From Roseococcus sp. SYP-B2431 (GTDB lineage Bacteria > Pseudomonadota > Alphaproteobacteria > Acetobacterales > Acetobacteraceae), in NCBI RefSeq assembly GCF_004336745.1, contig NZ_SJXD01000011.1, positions 558,001 to 622,000 of the forward strand: a stretch of DNA of 64,000 nt, given 5' to 3'. This document shows positions 8,113-27,725 of the stretch, in pieces. Numbering within the stretch: position 1 is the first letter of the stretch; each line of letters starts with the position of its first letter. The notes below the pieces were generated by a model. It saw only the letters and a list, made by a program, of their open reading frames with translations. It did not search any database and was not told the DNA's origin. Both the position numbers and the translations under genes were made by a program.

Positions 8113-8892
8113 ATGCTCCTGCCGCTGCTCCTCGCCTTCGCCGTCACCGCCGTCTCGGCGGGGCTCGGCGTCGTCACCTACCGGTTGGCGCGCGCCTTCT
8201 GGCCCGTGACGGACAAGGACGGCGCCGATCTGGCGGCCATGGTCATCGTGCGGGTCGGCATCCTGCACGCGCTCATCGTCGCGCTCGCCTTCGCGGAGGT
8301 GAAGCAGAACGAGATGCAGACGCGGCAACTCGTCGCGGAAGAGGCGGTGACGATCGCCGACGTCTTCTACGACCTGCAGCGCTACGGGCGGGAGCAGACC
8401 GCGGCGGAGCAGCGGCTGGCCGTGCGCTACGCGCAGCAGGTGATCGGGCGCGACTGGCCCGAACTGGACCGGAGTGGCGCGCTCAGCCTGGAGGCCTGGA
8501 GAACCTGGCGCGAACTCCTCGAGCACGTGCTGGACCTCGATCCGGCCAACCGCCGGCAGGAGCTCGTCCACGCGCGGCTGGTCCGGAACGTCTACCTGGT
8601 GGAGGAGCAGCGGCAGAAGCGGCTCATCGACGCGCATGAGGCGCCGCACCCGTTCTTCTGGTTCGCGGCGGTCGTGGGCCTGATCGTGATCTGCGGCTGC
8701 CTCGCCCCCTATCCGCCGCGGCGTTCGACGCATGCGCTCGTCGCCACCTTCGCGGGCTTCACCGGCGCGGTGCTTTACCTGGCCTACGACGTCACGACGC
8801 CCTTCTCGGGCCTCTCGGTCATCGAGCCGTCGGGTTTCGAGACCTTCCTCCGCCAGTCCGAGCCGGCGGAGATCATCGCCCGGATGCGCTGA
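8113..8892 (+). CDS. DUF4239-type four-helix membrane protein
   Basis: A 259-residue inner-membrane protein with two N-terminal spans (about 5-27 and 43-62), a soluble helical middle section rich in Glu/Arg/Gln (about 65-180), and two C-terminal spans (about 182-202 and 210-232). The last contains the AYDVTTPFSG segment that, with the overall layout, resembles DUF4239 (bestrophin-like) proteins. The function of that family is unsettled. The gene follows xerD by 41 bp and converges on the HTH regulator 10 bp away. Confidence 0.72.
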   Translation: MLLPLLLAFAVTAVSAGLGVVTYRLARAFWPVTDKDGADLAAMVIVRVGILHALIVALAFAEVKQNEMQTRQLVAEEAVTIADVFYDLQRYGREQTAAEQRLAVRYAQQVIGRDWPELDRSGALSLEAWRTWRELLEHVLDLDPANRRQELVHARLVRNVYLVEEQRQKRLIDAHEAPHPFFWFAAVVGLIVICGCLAPYPPRRSTHALVATFAGFTGAVLYLAYDVTTPFSGLSVIEPSGFETFLRQSEPAEIIARMR

Positions 8893-22295: not shown

Positions 22296-23517
22296 GATCC
22301 TCGTCGCCGGCGGCGGCATCGGCGGGCTGACCGCCGCGCTGTCGCTGCACGCCGCCGGCTTCGAGCCCGTGGTCTTCGAGGCCGTGCCGGAGCTGCGGCC
22401 GCTCGGCGTCGGCATCAACCTGCTGCCGCATGCGGTGCGCGAGCTGACCGAGCTGGGCCTGGGCGAGGCCCTGGCCGGGATCGGCGTCGCCACGCGCGAG
22501 CTGCGCTATGTCAGCGCGCATGGGCAGGAGATCTGGCGCGAGGATCGCGGGCTGGCCGCCGGCTATCGCTGGCCGCAATACAGCCTGCATCGCGGGGCCC
22601 TGCAGATGCTGCTGGCCGAGACCTGCCGGCAGCGCGGTATCGCCGTCCATGCCGGACACCGCCTGCTGCGCTTCGGGCAGGATTCGGAGGGCGTCACGGC
22701 GCATTTCGCGAATGCGAGCTCCGCGAAGGGCGATGCGCTGATCGGGGCGGACGGCATCCATTCCGCGGTGCGCGCGCATTTCGCGCCGGGCGAGGGGCCA
22801 CCCTCCTGGCAAGGCGCGCTGCTCTGGCGCGCGACGACGGTGGCCGCGCCCTTCCTGACCGGCGCGACCATGGTGCAGGCCGGGCATCATTCGCAGAAGT
22901 TCGTCTGCTACCCGATCCGGCACCTGCCGGACGGGCGCGTGCTGACCAACTGGATCGCCGAGATGAAGGTCGATCCCGCGCAGGGCTTCGACCGCGAGGA
23001 CTGGAACCGCGAGGCCGACCGCGACCGCTTCCTGCCCGCCTATGAATCCTGGGACTGGGGCTGGCTCGACGTGCCCGGACTGATCCGCGGCGCCGAGCGC
23101 GTGCTGGAATATCCGATGGTGGACCGCGACCCGCTGGAGCGCTGGACGGAGGGCCGCGTCACGCTGCTGGGCGATGCGGCGCATCCGATGTACCCGATCG
23201 GCTCCAATGGCGCGTCGCAGGCGATCCTGGACGCACGGCAGCTCGCCTTGCATCTCGCGCGCGAGGGCATTCCCGAGGGGCTGCTGGCCTACGAGGCGGC
23301 GCGGCGCCCGCCCACGGCGAAGCTCACGCTGGCCAATCGCGCGCTGGGGCCGGACCTCATCCTGGAGGAGGTGTACCGCCGCGCGCCGGAGGGCTTCACC
23401 GACCTGCATGCGGTGATCAGCCGGCAGGAGCTGGAGGAGGTCTCGGCCAACTACAAGAAGCTGGCGGGCTTCGACCCGGCGCTGCTCAACGAGCGGGAGA
23501 GCTGGTCGGTGAACTGA
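22288..23517 (+). CDS. FAD-dependent aromatic monooxygenase (salicylate/3-hydroxybenzoate hydroxylase type)
   Basis: A 409-residue group A flavoprotein monooxygenase. The dinucleotide-binding motif is VAGGGIGGLTAALSL; the second motif LIGADGIHSAVR (DG) and the third LLGDAAHPMYPIGSNGASQ (GD) are intact. Such enzymes use NAD(P)H and O2 to hydroxylate phenolic acids in the cytoplasm. It is coupled to the amidase gene. Its last 32 bp overlap the 3' end of the convergent udgX gene. Confidence 0.9.
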   Translation: MARILVAGGGIGGLTAALSLHAAGFEPVVFEAVPELRPLGVGINLLPHAVRELTELGLGEALAGIGVATRELRYVSAHGQEIWREDRGLAAGYRWPQYSLHRGALQMLLAETCRQRGIAVHAGHRLLRFGQDSEGVTAHFANASSAKGDALIGADGIHSAVRAHFAPGEGPPSWQGALLWRATTVAAPFLTGATMVQAGHHSQKFVCYPIRHLPDGRVLTNWIAEMKVDPAQGFDREDWNREADRDRFLPAYESWDWGWLDVPGLIRGAERVLEYPMVDRDPLERWTEGRVTLLGDAAHPMYPIGSNGASQAILDARQLALHLAREGIPEGLLAYEAARRPPTAKLTLANRALGPDLILEEVYRRAPEGFTDLHAVISRQELEEVSANYKKLAGFDPALLNERESWSVN

Positions 23518-24940
23518 GCCAGTCGCGCGCGGCCTCCAGATCCTCGCGGAAGCGGATCGCCTCCCGGCCCCGGGCCCGTGCGTCGGGCAGGCGCAGCAGA
23601 TAGGAGGGGTGGACCGTCACGATCATCGCGCGGCCAGCGTCCAGCGCATGCAGCCGCCCACGGAGGTCCGCCAGCTTCGGCACCTTTCCCGTCAGCGCCG
23701 AAACGGCGGTGCGGCCCATCGCCACCACCAGCTTGGGCCGGATCAGCGCCATCTCGCGATCCAGCCACCAGCGGCATTGCTCCACCTCGCCGCTGCTCGG
23801 CGACTGGTGGATGCGGCGCTTGCCGCGCAGCTCGTATTTGAAGTGCTTCACGGCATTGGTGACGTAGGCCGCCGAGCGGTCGAGGCCGGCCTGGCGCATC
23901 GTGTCGTCCAAGATCCGGCCGGCCGGGCCGACGAAGGGGCGGCCCTCCAAATCCTCCTCGTCGCCGGGCTGCTCGCCCAGGAACATGAGGGACGCGTGCT
24001 CGGGCCCCTCGCCGAAGACGGTCTGCGTCGCCTGGCAATGCAGCGGGCATCGCGTGCAGCCCCGCGCCTCCGCGCGCAGGCCGGCGAGACCTTCCATGGG
24101 CGGCAGCGGCTCGGCCGGCGCGCGCGCCTGGATCCGGTCATGGAAGGCGGGCGGCCGGCGCGCCGCCTGCTCCGCCATCGCCGCGACCCGCGCCGGCGCC
24201 TGGGCGATGAGATCGGGGATCAGCGCCGCCTCGGGCAGGTTGGCCCAGTACTTCTTCGGCATCTCGGCCATCATCGCCTTCACCTTCAGCCGGGCCGGGT
24301 TGAAGATGTTGCGGTAATAGGTGAGCCACAGCGCATCCGTGGGGTCGGCAAGGTCGGGCTTCTGCGCGGGCGCCTCGCTGACGCGCAGCGCCCCGTCGGT
24401 CAGCGAGGCGGAGCCCTTCGGCGTCAGGATCATCCAGTCCATGTCGGCGAAGCGACGCGCGAAGAAGGGCGCGGTGCGCCCGACGATGTGGTGGTCCGGC
24501 TCGAACCAGGCGACGAAGCGCCGGCGCGCGCCCTCGGCGGGGACTTCGCGGAAGCGGAGGAAGGCCGTCATCTTGTGCGCGTCGCGGCGGACCGCCTTCT
24601 CCAGCCGCCGCGCGGCCACGACGTCGCGGTCCATCCTGTCGGAGAGCAGCTGCCGGTCGACCTGGAGCCGCGCGATCATCCGGTAGAGCAGTTCGAAGCG
24701 CGCCGGATCGGAGTGGCAGATCACCGCCTCCGCCAATTCGAGGAAGGAGGGCGGGACGCGCGGCAGCGGCGTGACCGGAGGCGAGGCGGTCGCGCGCGGC
24801 GCCGGCTCCTCCGCGAACAGCCCTTCCTCGCCGAGCCGCCAATCCACCTCGTGCGGCGCGACGCCGCCCAGCAGCAGCATGCGCGCGGCGTCGCGCCATT
24901 CGGGGAAGTCGGCCGCGTGGCGGAGGCGGACGGTGCGCAT
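23486..24940 (-). CDS. udgX: UdgX-family uracil-DNA cross-linking protein with N-terminal DUF4130 domain
   Basis: A 484-residue two-domain protein. Residues about 1-275 match the DUF4130 domain that accompanies this radical SAM partner (RDAHKMTAFLRFREV, WMILTPKGS, WLTYYRNIFNPARL). Residues 290-484 are a family-4-like uracil-DNA glycosylase: CTRCPL with Fe-S cysteines, GEQPGDEEDLEGRPFVGP (motif A) and HPSYLLR (motif B). The KRRIHQ loop (374-379) contains the His that makes UdgX bind uracil-DNA covalently rather than release uracil. The start overlaps the radical SAM stop by one base. Both are behind a LexA box. Confidence 0.9.
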   Translation of the reverse strand: MRTVRLRHAADFPEWRDAARMLLLGGVAPHEVDWRLGEEGLFAEEPAPRATASPPVTPLPRVPPSFLELAEAVICHSDPARFELLYRMIARLQVDRQLLSDRMDRDVVAARRLEKAVRRDAHKMTAFLRFREVPAEGARRRFVAWFEPDHHIVGRTAPFFARRFADMDWMILTPKGSASLTDGALRVSEAPAQKPDLADPTDALWLTYYRNIFNPARLKVKAMMAEMPKKYWANLPEAALIPDLIAQAPARVAAMAEQAARRPPAFHDRIQARAPAEPLPPMEGLAGLRAEARGCTRCPLHCQATQTVFGEGPEHASLMFLGEQPGDEEDLEGRPFVGPAGRILDDTMRQAGLDRSAAYVTNAVKHFKYELRGKRRIHQSPSSGEVEQCRWWLDREMALIRPKLVVAMGRTAVSALTGKVPKLADLRGRLHALDAGRAMIVTVHPSYLLRLPDARARGREAIRFREDLEAARDWLSSPTSSPAR

Positions 24941-26172
24941 CACAGCAGCGCCATCTGCTCGGGCGCGGGCCGGAACAGGGCGCCCAGATCCAGCCGGTCG
25001 ATCAGCCGCAGCGGCGTCCAGTCGGCGGTCGCGATGAAGGGCCGCACCTTGCGCAGCGAGACGCGCAGCCGCCCGAGATCCTCCAGCCGGACGCGGCGAT
25101 GCCGCCGCGCGGCCAGGATCGCCTGCACCACCTTCACGCCGAAGCCCGGCACGCGCAGCAGCATCTCGCGCGGGGCGCGGTTCACGTCCACCGGGAAGCG
25201 CTCGCGATGCGCCAGCGCCCAGGCGAGCTTGGGATCGAGGTCGAGGTCCAGCATGCCGTCGGGCCGCGCCGCGGTGATCTCCTCGATGCCGAAGCCGTAG
25301 AAGCGGAACAGCCAGTCCGCCTGGTAGAGCCGGTGCTCGCGCATCAGCGGCGGCTTTTGCGGCGGCAGGCGCGAGGAGGCATCGGGGATGGGGCTGAAGC
25401 CCGAATAATAGACGCGCCGCAGCCCGTAGCTGCCATAGAGCCGGCCGCTGGTGGAGAGGATGGTCGCATCGCTGGCGGCATCCGCGCCCACGATCACCTG
25501 CGTGGACTGGCCGGCGGGGGCGAAGCGCCGCCGCGCCTTGGTGCGCAGCGTCGGCTCGCCCATCTCCTCGATCTTGGTCCGCAGCCCGGCCATGGCGCGC
25601 CGGATGCCGGCCGGGCGCTTCTCGGGCGCCAGGCTGGCGAGGCCCGCATCGGTCGGCATCTCGATGTTGATGGAGAGCCGGTCGGCGTAGAGCCCCGCCT
25701 CCTCGATCAAGGCGGGCGAGGCCTCGGGGATGGTCTTGAGGTGGATATAGCCGCGGAACCCATGGGTCGTGCGCAGCTCGCGCGCCACGCGGACCATCTG
25801 CTCCATCGTGTGGTCGGAGGAGCGGATGATGCCGGAGGAGAGGAACAGCCCCTCGATGTAGTTGCGCCGGTAGAATTCCAGGGTCAGCCAGATCACCTCC
25901 TCCGCCGTGAAGCGGGCGCGCGCGACGTTGCTGGAGGAGCGGTTGATGCAATAGGCGCAGTCATAGATGCAGAAATTCGTCAGCAGGATCTTCAGCAGCG
26001 AGATGCAGCGCCCGTCCGGCGCATAGGCGTGGCAGATGCCGGAGCCCTCGGTCGAGCCCAGGCCCCCGGAGCGCGCGGAATCGCGCTTCTCCGTGCCGCT
26101 CGAGGCGCAGGAGGCGTCGTATTTGGCCGCGTCCGAAAGGATCGCGAGCCGTTCCGTGAGCGTGCGTTGCAT
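24940..26172 (-). CDS. Radical SAM protein of the UdgX-linked DNA modification/repair family
   Basis: A 410-residue protein with the radical SAM cluster motif C68-IYD-C72-AY-C75 near the N-terminus and a helix-hairpin-helix DNA-binding element toward the C-terminus (VNRAPREMLLRVPGFGVKVVQ, cut here at its core RVPGFGVKVV). It corresponds to the putative DNA modification/repair radical SAM family that occurs beside UdgX/DUF4130 proteins; its reaction is not established. It heads a two-gene operon coupled at TGATG. A GTTC-N7-GTTC LexA box lies eight bases upstream of its ATG, so expression should rise in the SOS response. Confidence 0.9.
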   Translation of the reverse strand: MQRTLTERLAILSDAAKYDASCASSGTEKRDSARSGGLGSTEGSGICHAYAPDGRCISLLKILLTNFCIYDCAYCINRSSSNVARARFTAEEVIWLTLEFYRRNYIEGLFLSSGIIRSSDHTMEQMVRVARELRTTHGFRGYIHLKTIPEASPALIEEAGLYADRLSINIEMPTDAGLASLAPEKRPAGIRRAMAGLRTKIEEMGEPTLRTKARRRFAPAGQSTQVIVGADAASDATILSTSGRLYGSYGLRRVYYSGFSPIPDASSRLPPQKPPLMREHRLYQADWLFRFYGFGIEEITAARPDGMLDLDLDPKLAWALAHRERFPVDVNRAPREMLLRVPGFGVKVVQAILAARRHRRVRLEDLGRLRVSLRKVRPFIATADWTPLRLIDRLDLGALFRPAPEQMALL

Positions 26173-26179
26173 GATGCAT

Positions 26180-26194
26180 GTTCACTAAATGTTC
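26180..26194. promoter_or_regulatory. LexA (SOS) box of the radical SAM-udgX operon
   Basis: GTTC-ACTAAAT-GTTC is an exact match to the direct-repeat LexA site GTTC-N7-GTTC described for alphaproteobacteria (Rhizobium, Rhodobacter, Caulobacter). It ends eight bases before the operon's start codon, where LexA would cover the promoter or transcription start. Confidence 0.82.
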
Positions 26195-26240
26195 TGGACG
26201 CGGAATTCAAGCCCTGAGGCTGTTCCGCCGGGCGGTCCCG

Positions 26241-26927
26241 CTATCCCGTGAACTTCCCCGTCTTCTCGTTGTAGGGAAACACCCCCAGGTTCCGGGTCGC
26301 GTAAAAGCCGCGGCAGGCCGCGGCTCCGGCCAGGAACTCGGAATCGCCGTCCCAGAAGCCGGCGAAGGGGTCGTCCTTGTCCACGCCGCGATTGTCCTTG
26401 GAGACCCAGTCGTCCTGGCAGCCGTGCTGGATCTTCGTGACCAGCGTGCGGTTCATCCGCTTCAGGATTTCCGTCGCCTGGGTGCCGTAGCCGCCGCGCT
26501 TGCCGCCGTTCTGCGCGGTGACGCGGACGCGCTGGAACTCGCCCTGCCACTTCTGCCAGATGCCCATGAGGTCGTAATCCGAGACGTAGAGCGCGGAATC
26601 GATAATCGGCTCGCCGTTTCGGAACAGCGGCGCCCCGTTTCCGTCGCGCCGGACCTTGTGGATGGAGACCACCCCGGAATCCCCGGTCTTCTTGTACAGC
26701 GCGCCGATCTTGGCCGGCAGCATGCCCTGCCACGCATAGGCGGCGGCCTTGGGGCAGCGCACGACGATGCAGAAGCCGGGCCGGCTCGCCGTGAAGGCGC
26801 GGATCGCCGCGACGTCGGCCGGCAGCATGCCGGCCTGCCGCCCCAGCTCGATGTCCCGCTCCGATACGCCGCCGGCCCGCGCCTCATGGTCGCGGGCCAG
26901 GGTCATGATCTCCCCGAGTGTGATCAT
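26241..26927 (-). CDS. Putative edema factor/ExoY-like (Anthrax_toxA) nucleotidyl cyclase-fold protein
   Basis: A 228-residue protein without signal peptide. The N-terminal half reads like ExoY/edema factor: a DVAAIRAFTASRPGFCIVVR strand-helix, R57 in VRCPK, then K73 and K80 seven residues apart as K346/K353 are in edema factor. D117-Y-D119 (VSDYDLMGIW) matches the metal-binding DxD (D491/D493). KIQHGCQDD (H168) matches the HGTE-like nucleotide loop. Differences: the catalytic His between the two Lys is Tyr78, and the Asn of the last loop is Trp174. So activity may be altered or lost. The assignment rests on motifs read by eye. Confidence 0.55.
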   Translation of the reverse strand: MITLGEIMTLARDHEARAGGVSERDIELGRQAGMLPADVAAIRAFTASRPGFCIVVRCPKAAAYAWQGMLPAKIGALYKKTGDSGVVSIHKVRRDGNGAPLFRNGEPIIDSALYVSDYDLMGIWQKWQGEFQRVRVTAQNGGKRGGYGTQATEILKRMNRTLVTKIQHGCQDDWVSKDNRGVDKDDPFAGFWDGDSEFLAGAAACRGFYATRNLGVFPYNEKTGKFTG

Positions 26928-27056
26928 CGCGCGCCACCTCTTCTCTGTGCGCGATGTTTGTGGGAGCGCGCGAGGGAATGGAATATCCGCAACTGTCGCG
27001 TGTGTCGCGTCGGCGGCCGGCTTCCGGGAATCGTGGGCGGATGGCATAGGGGGCCC

Positions 27057-27725
27057 GTGCGAATCCTTTACCACCTGCCGCTTTCGCCGTTCTCACGGAA
27101 GGTCCGCCTGGCGCTGGCCGAAAAGCGTATTCCCTTCGAGCTCCGAGTCGAAAAGGTCTGGGAACGAAGGCCGGAATTCGTCGCCATGAATCCGGCCTGC
27201 ACGGTGCCGGTCCTGGTGGAGGAGAACGGCCTCGTCCTCTGCGAGAGCTACGCCATCTGCGAGTACCTGGACGAGGCCTATCCCGACGTCCCGCTCATCG
27301 GCCGCACCCATGCCGAGCGGGCCGAGGTGCGGCGGCTGATCGCCTGGTTCGACAATCACTTCGGCCAGCAGGTCTACCGGAACCTGCTCTGGGAGCGGCA
27401 CATGAAGCGCCAGCTCGGGCAGGGCAATCCGGACGGCGCGGCGATCCGCGCGGGCTATGCGCATCTCAAGACGCATATGGAGGTGATCGGCTGGCTGGCC
27501 GAGCGGCGGAGCTGGCTGGCCGGCGCGCAGCTCAGCCTCGCCGATTTCGCGGCCGCCGCGCACCTCTCCGCGCTGGACTACGCCAACGACGTCGACTGGA
27601 CGCTGAACACGGCGGCACGGGACTGGTACAGCCGCGTGAAGTCGCGCCCCTCCTTCCGGACCCTGCTGGCCGACCGCGTCACCGGCATGGAGCCGCCGCC
27701 GCACTACGCCGACCTGGATTTCTGA
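27057..27725 (+). CDS. Glutathione S-transferase family protein
   Basis: A 222-residue GST starting at GTG. The thioredoxin-like domain begins RILYHLPLSPFSRKVRLALAE, with the catalytic Ser/Cys position at SPFSRK. The cis-Pro turn is CTVPVLVEENG, followed by ESYAICEYLDE. The C-terminal domain has WLAGAQLSLADFAAAAHLS. The sequence resembles the alphaproteobacterial GSTs of unknown substrate. Twenty base pairs separate it from the next gene on the same strand. Confidence 0.87.
   Translation: MRILYHLPLSPFSRKVRLALAEKRIPFELRVEKVWERRPEFVAMNPACTVPVLVEENGLVLCESYAICEYLDEAYPDVPLIGRTHAERAEVRRLIAWFDNHFGQQVYRNLLWERHMKRQLGQGNPDGAAIRAGYAHLKTHMEVIGWLAERRSWLAGAQLSLADFAAAAHLSALDYANDVDWTLNTAARDWYSRVKSRPSFRTLLADRVTGMEPPPHYADLDF

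Follow-up and report, generated by a model that had tools for sequence, protein, structure and literature searches.

Does the LexA-type box that stands before an operon of a radical S-adenosylmethionine (SAM) protein, DUF4130 and the uracil-trapping protein UdgX go with UdgX, or with its neighbours? We addressed this question for a locus of Roseococcus sp. SYP-B2431 (assembly GCF_004336745.1), located on the minus strand of a 64,000-nucleotide (nt) stretch of contig NZ_SJXD01000011.1 (positions 558,001 to 622,000), which is referred to as the window. An earlier note on this DNA had proposed SOS control of the pair formed by UdgX and the radical SAM protein, and had suggested that the latter might act on the covalent adduct that UdgX makes with DNA. 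We find that LexA boxes follow the radical SAM and DUF4130 genes, not UdgX. These two genes are the constant core of the operon, and UdgX is an optional add-on.

The operon and its LexA box

The first gene (24940..26172, minus strand) encodes a radical SAM protein of 410 amino acids (aa) that matches TIGR03916 or rSAM_link_UDG, the putative DNA modification/repair radical SAM proteins (559.8 bits, cut-off 343.5). We take this family to be the same as COG4277. The stop codon of the first gene overlaps the start of the second gene in a TGATG at 24940 on the minus strand. The second gene (23486..24940, minus strand) encodes a 484-aa fusion of DUF4130 (TIGR03915, residues 8-238, 24227..24919; 199.3 bits, cut-off 112.25; 138.6 bits against a cut-off of 27 with the Pfam DUF4130 model) and UdgX (TIGR03914, residues 240-470, 23531..24223; 332.6 bits, cut-off 189.95).

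An exact GTTC-N7-GTTC, which we, like the earlier note, take to be the alphaproteobacterial LexA motif, lies at 26180..26194 (plus strand GTTCACTAAATGTTC, operon strand GAACATTTAGTGAAC). The box is thus found ahead of the operon as that note had described, and the gap to the radical SAM ATG at 26172, given there as eight bases, was measured as 7 nt. A co-directional gene of 277 aa lies upstream (26241-27074, minus strand), for which a Pfam search gave no match. This gene has the same direction and stops 46 nt short of the box, so that the box is most likely that of the operon.

Taken alone, the motif match is weak evidence and is not significant in the window, which contains two exact matches where 0.78 are expected; 21 of 100 shuffles reach two. 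The other match (8501-8515) has a GC-rich spacer, ranks 30 among the 55 exact boxes of the genome and is probably there by chance. These 55 boxes compare with 25 for the reversed pattern (Poisson P 1.5e-7), so that perhaps about half of them may be chance matches. For a given start, the probability that a box ends no more than 40 nt away by chance is about 5e-4. When boxes were scored by a spacer profile built from 12 other box-linked sites, the target being excluded, the operon box ranked 8 of 55, a ranking that speaks for the spacer only, as the training genes were chosen for having a box.

The box may be part of the promoter itself. A candidate -10 element (TTTAGT, 26184..26189, minus strand) lies inside the box spacer, and a candidate -35 element (TTGAAT) is found at 26205..26210 on the same strand. 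Upstream of the box, conservation across 107 dereplicated regions is strongest at a TTGAC-like element, which lies at -18 or -16 relative to the box. The spacer of the commonest box among the relatives (45 of 125) contains TATAGT. For the 125 GAAC-oriented boxes at most 40 nt from a start, the commonest gaps between box and start are 6 (39 boxes), 2 (28), 4 (12) and 5 nt (10). From this arrangement we infer that LexA covers the -10 element and that the mRNA has little or no leader.

Conservation of the box across LexA motifs

To see how far the box is conserved, we compared 110 loci, of which 30 came from a family search (including L068, the window's own locus) and 80 were named loci taken from GTDB genomes. 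In the interval that runs from 250 nt upstream to 30 nt downstream of the aligned radical SAM start, an exact box was present at 100 of 110 loci, or 99 of the 109 relatives, and the reversed control pattern at 2 of 110. The box is judged real because of this conservation at related promoters. Among the 80 named loci alone, the promoter window contains a box in 76; the boxes total 81, where the remainder of this DNA would predict 0.45.

A second comparison used a phylum sample of 299 genomes, 53 of which have a radical SAM match over the cut-off; the 52 besides the genome studied here (G000) were used for promoters. This sample and the 110 loci may share species and are not wholly independent. 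Among genomes of the window's class, which named relatives suggest is the Alphaproteobacteria, GTTC-N7-GTTC was found at the radical SAM gene in 35 of 35, with the reversed control in 2 of 35. Outside the class it was found in none of 17. There, CTGT-N8-ACAG, which we take to be the E. coli-type LexA box, lies near the radical SAM start in 15 of 17 genomes (12 exact, 3 with one mismatch), as against 2 of the 35 same-class genomes, with one mismatch. Of the 14 exact sites in the 17 outside-class loci, 12 are the promoter ones. With up to one mismatch allowed, sites become more frequent (29 in 79 kb, of which 16 fall in promoter windows), so that the three one-mismatch cases count for less. It therefore seems that the operon stayed under SOS control through a change of LexA motif.

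Together with the box-linked repair genes of the same genome (see below), this conservation and the replacement of one LexA motif by another outside the class strongly support the SOS control proposed in the earlier note. Judged from these sequence comparisons, SOS/LexA control of the operon is very probable.

Constant and optional genes of the operon

We then asked which genes accompany the box. In the 299 genomes, models scored over their cut-offs in 53 genomes for the radical SAM protein, 56 for DUF4130 and 52 for UdgX. Every radical SAM genome also has DUF4130 (53/53), whereas 40 of the 53 have UdgX and 13 have no UdgX over the cut-off. Conversely, 12 of the 52 UdgX genomes lack the radical SAM gene. 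DUF4130 occurs without it in three genomes, and in one, G435, it is found alone. The same pattern holds in the promoter comparison, where all 110 loci have a DUF4130 match. One control genome, Bacteroides ihuae, has radical SAM and DUF4130 matches and is not among the UdgX-model matches, and another, Caulobacter vibrioides, matches all three models.

The boxes are distributed in the same way. In the phylum sample, G000 not being counted, a LexA box stands at 12 of 13 operons without UdgX and at 38 of 39 operons with it. Among the 77 named loci that extend 1,500 nt or more beyond the radical SAM gene, 11 have no UdgX match, and nine of these have a box; L118 and L122 have none. In Asticcacaulis, UdgX is missing beside the radical SAM gene in 5 of 5 loci seen. 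UdgX genes away from the radical SAM gene (10 from genomes that lack it, and 4 second copies) have a box in 1 of 14 cases, in a search that began 300 nt before each open frame. This single case (L221, genome G219) is a decayed operon in which only the end of DUF4130 is left. The studied genome itself carries a second UdgX-like gene (L232, G000:C29:224607-225221), away from any radical SAM gene seen and with an in-frame TAG in the match, for which the promoter search found no LexA box.

A third gene that takes the place of UdgX did not stand out by eye in 24 UdgX-less loci, for which the two best-scoring frames within 2.2 kb after DUF4130 were considered, with no family search of the neighbours. 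The genes that follow DUF4130 in these loci are shared only among a few similar ones. One entry on this list (L238) lies outside the searched sequences and contributes nothing to the comparison.

Several observations weigh against LexA control of a radical SAM-DUF4130 core. Two genomes of one genus (G348 and G365; loci L233 and L235) have a box directly before DUF4130-UdgX and no radical SAM match; as they keep both the box and these two domains, DUF4130-UdgX may also work without the radical SAM protein. Ten of the 110 loci have no exact box (L059, L060, L071, L076, L077, L086, L118, L121, L122 and L163), one of which, the Roseococcus locus L121, has a box with one mismatch (GAACATATAGTAAAC). 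Outside the class, two of 17 loci (L167 and L188) have neither LexA motif, and the three one-mismatch sites are weak singly, as chance would give about 0.8 sites with up to one mismatch over the 17 promoter windows. In the window, the spacing of 15 nt between TTGAAT and TTTAGT is short for a promoter.

Conserved residues and domains

The residue counts below are based on 163 radical SAM rows, which count the window twice (as itself and as L068); the same duplication applies to the partner rows, from which 3 of 162 loci without a partner translation of at least 200 aa were left out. The alignment of the radical SAM protein contained 41 of the 80 named loci and that of the fusion 38, each with the window added. 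Length limits removed no chosen row from the 163 radical SAM rows or from the tree described below.

The radical SAM protein has six cysteines that are invariant in 163 of 163 rows. Three of these form the CX3CX2C motif (C68/C72/C75, 25948..25971, minus strand), the site of the SAM-binding iron-sulphur cluster. The others lie in the stretch 26005..26109 on the same strand: C22 (26107-26109), C47 (26032-26034) and C56 (26005-26007). As C22, C47 and C56 are invariant besides the CX3CX2C motif, they suggest a possible second metal site. The earlier note had described a two-gene operon that combines UdgX and DUF4130 with a radical SAM protein carrying a helix-hairpin-helix (HhH) element. The operon and its three families are confirmed, all three models being over their cut-offs, and the HhH element in the tail of the radical SAM protein is likely (residues 328-357, 25102..25191, minus strand), although it scores 19 bits for Pfam HHH_3, under the cut-off of 27, and its profile resembles chains of ComEA and RuvA only weakly (E 0.066-0.46). 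Searched against the PDB, the radical SAM profile matched HhH proteins and HydE/HydG-like enzymes alone, and these weakly (E at least 0.066).

For the DUF4130 part, a search of PDB chains gave no match at E up to 0.001. H122, R129, E147, R163, Y208, R217, W232 and E237 are identical in all aligned rows (159 or 160).

The UdgX domain matches the M. smegmatis UdgX structures 6iod and 6ail (E about 1e-47), with which its motifs align residue by residue. In motif A (GEQPG, 23963..23977, minus strand), E323/Q324 correspond to E52/Q53 of M. smegmatis UdgX. The KRRIHQ loop (23804..23821, minus strand), in which the earlier note had recognised the covalent loop of UdgX, is indeed present, and its H378 corresponds to the covalent H109. 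Motif B (HPSYLLR, 23591..23611, minus strand) aligns likewise. The numbering of the M. smegmatis residues is that of PMC10359453. The covalent histidine is found in 123 of 127 rows with a UDG domain in the same frame, the remainder being 2 gaps, 1 D and 1 P.

Other boxes in the genome

The 55 genomic boxes represent 54 loci, and neighbours were read at 30 of these, picked by eye as intergenic or AT-rich. Of 18 neighbouring proteins put through family searches, 15 were given a family; the other three (L036:1956-2390, L023:1531-1773 and L006:1324-1506) had no family match in these searches. Boxes lie 77 nt before lexA, 56 nt before recA and 7 nt before radA, and one overlaps the start of parE. 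A single box lies between uvrA and ssb, 24 and 110 nt from their respective starts, and another between an error-prone polymerase gene and a partly matching SRAP gene (L023; 258 and 100 nt). An imuA-like gene is also box-linked (92.8 bits, under its cut-off of 150). Another box lies 51 nt ahead of a ligase-associated exonuclease gene, and on the far side of that box is a DEAD/Lhr-type helicase gene. In addition, boxes were found 20 nt before an AlkB-type 2OG-Fe(II) oxygenase gene (L001:836-1480) and at 87 nt from an S24 peptidase gene.

A PA0069-family radical SAM gene (L049:848-1945) has a box 6 nt before its start, the spacer of which ranks 20 of 55, and may encode a second SOS-controlled radical SAM protein of this genome. 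A LigT-like phosphoesterase gene (L014:1523-2179) follows a high-scoring box by 7 nt; it matches the RNA 2',3'-cyclic phosphodiesterase model under the cut-off and is an unusual candidate SOS gene. The SRAP family has five matches in the genome, on contigs C1, C4 and C10, of which one is full-length (on C1), and a LexA-type box adjoins a partial one on C4.

Probable horizontal transfer, and records of mobile elements

The radical SAM protein of the window is 90% identical to one from Roseococcus pinisoli. In a tree built from the window and 77 chosen loci, both fall together with 16 rows from Rhizobiaceae (support 89/94, not starred). The window's family has 29 other rows: 6 in the group next to this one, within one clade of 33 rows, and 23 more distant. 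In a sample of 150 genomes from this family, 61 have a match, and none of these is another genome of the window's genus (two were listed, without a match). The gene has likely, though not certainly, been transferred horizontally together with its promoter.

Relatives of the radical SAM gene occur on 158 of 72,556 plasmid records, called non-mobilizable in 142 cases, mobilizable in 9 and conjugative in 7; 58 are from Phaeobacter. A phage origin was considered and rejected. A phage collection gave 10 matches. Two of them are sister records, of which the inspected one, the 240-kb 'Acinetobacter phage MD-2021a' (L238), contains glyS/glyQ and other bacterial genes and is probably a mislabelled bacterial contig, in which an annotated 'probable DNA metabolism protein' adjoins the radical SAM gene. 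At this Acinetobacter locus, a palindrome that we take to be of the UmuDAb type is no commoner than chance would give, with 5 matches where 3.68 are expected and no match within 500 nt upstream of the radical SAM gene. Eight other matches are unannotated 'Bacteriophage sp.' records, and the two that were inspected are marked UNVERIFIED. IMG/VR contains two loci with the radical SAM gene. In the radical SAM promoter of an unannotated gut contig (L239:5925-5975), two imperfect CGAAC-N4-GTTCG-like sites lie around a TATAAT; these resemble what we take to be the Gram-positive LexA box.

Relation to known systems

The probable SOS control of this operon is not new and is of a known kind (PMC8565304). 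The available text of that paper predicts LexA regulation of a COG1573-COG4277 'UDG base excision repair' operon in Bacteroidetes, UDG being uracil-DNA glycosylase (NAR 2021, PMC8565304), and cites reports of SOS regulation of such a system in Verrucomicrobia and Alphaproteobacteria (Erill 2016, da Rocha 2008). Like the operon described here, it places a UDG gene and a COG4277 gene under predicted LexA control. However, that text treats the operon as a UDG system and leaves DUF4130 unnamed, whereas DUF4130 is constant in our data and UdgX optional. Within the open-access literature, and in the text available for it, we found no statement that DUF4130 is a constant partner or that SOS boxes follow DUF4130 rather than UdgX, and no demonstrated activity for TIGR03916 or DUF4130. 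Nor did we find an open-access paper that links UdgX with a radical SAM protein, or UdgX with LexA.

The UdgX domain resembles M. smegmatis UdgX in its GEQPG, KRRIH and HPS..LR motifs, and differs from it in being the C-terminal domain of a DUF4130 fusion within an SOS operon. The covalent chemistry of UdgX is described for both single- and double-stranded uracil DNA (PMC10359453, PMC10776899), and its physiological role is called largely unknown (PMC10359453). SRAP proteins (YedK/HMCES) are comparable in that an SOS-linked protein ends covalently bound to an abasic site. Unlike these, UdgX itself generates the site, from uracil, and it showed no reaction with an abasic site prepared beforehand (PMC10776899). 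Spore photoproduct lyase (SplB) is likewise a radical SAM protein tied to DNA repair, and PMC8565304 reports it as SOS-regulated in several species. The radical SAM protein of the operon differs from SplB in its three extra invariant cysteines, its HhH-like tail and its constant DUF4130 partner, and neither of two family-model searches of the operon proteins, one run to E 0.01 and the Pfam one to E 0.1, listed a model of SplB or of spore photoproduct lyase.

Proposed mechanism and alternatives

We consider it fairly probable that this is a LexA-repressed operon with a radical SAM-DUF4130 core for lesion repair and UdgX as an accessory uracil trap. LexA bound to the box, 7 nt before the start codon, would cover the likely -10 element. 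Upon DNA damage, RecA-stimulated cleavage of LexA would free the promoter, and a leaderless or nearly leaderless mRNA would be made. The first product would be a radical SAM enzyme that binds DNA through its HhH-like tail and probably has a further metal site. DUF4130, its constant partner, may serve as a substrate-handling or second catalytic subunit, and the pair would most likely reverse or remodel a base lesion by radical chemistry. UdgX, here fused to DUF4130, would excise uracil and cap the site covalently while damage persists. The suggestion of a uracil/DNA-modification module in the earlier note is well supported in its SOS part, and its label is too centred on UdgX, as the constant core is radical SAM-DUF4130.

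A bolder version seems possible to us, if somewhat short of probable. Here, radical SAM-DUF4130 would be a two-part SOS enzyme, made of a radical SAM protein with an auxiliary cluster and a catalytic DUF4130, that reverses a lesion beyond the reach of the known pathways. Its SOS control would have been kept in Pseudomonadota across the change of LexA motif, and UdgX would have been added as a covalent uracil shield that acts alongside SRAP.

Other explanations place UdgX in the main line of action. The radical SAM-DUF4130 pair could turn a lesion into a uracil-like base, which UdgX then removes and caps. The UdgX-DUF4130 fusion found in many operons and the retention of active-site residues such as H378 would fit such a linear pathway, but about a quarter of the sampled radical SAM genomes have no UdgX over the cut-off, and we regard it as unlikely. 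Less likely still is that UdgX provides the main function, as an SOS-controlled uracil or base-excision system to which the radical SAM protein is auxiliary. This corresponds to the published view of a UDG-based base excision repair operon, and to the two genomes that keep the box and DUF4130-UdgX without a radical SAM match. However, the boxes track radical SAM-DUF4130 and are nearly absent from UdgX genes elsewhere (1/14), and B. ihuae has the core and is not among the UdgX-model matches.

The idea raised in the earlier note, that the radical SAM protein resolves or processes the covalent UdgX-DNA adduct, found no support and is very improbable. Both proteins come from one SOS operon, 40 of 53 radical SAM genomes also have UdgX, and the adducts need some resolution, for which RecA-dependent pathways or proteases have been suggested in print. 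Yet UdgX over its cut-off is missing from 13 of the 53 radical SAM genomes, the radical SAM gene is missing from 12 of the 52 with UdgX, DUF4130 is the partner present in 53 of 53, and operons without UdgX keep their LexA boxes (12/13). That the box is a chance match or the site of another regulator can practically be dismissed: although about 0.8 such boxes are expected per window and the reversed pattern reaches 25 against 55 in the genome, the conservation, the box-linked repair genes and the other LexA motif in its place outside the class all argue against it.

The value added by our analysis is that the focus shifts from UdgX to the radical SAM-DUF4130 core. If SOS control tracks this core and not UdgX, the substrate to seek is that of the radical SAM-DUF4130 pair, and hosts that naturally lack UdgX would be a clean place for testing the pair. 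UdgX, in turn, would find its place as a covalent uracil trap that is induced in the SOS response and can be dispensed with.

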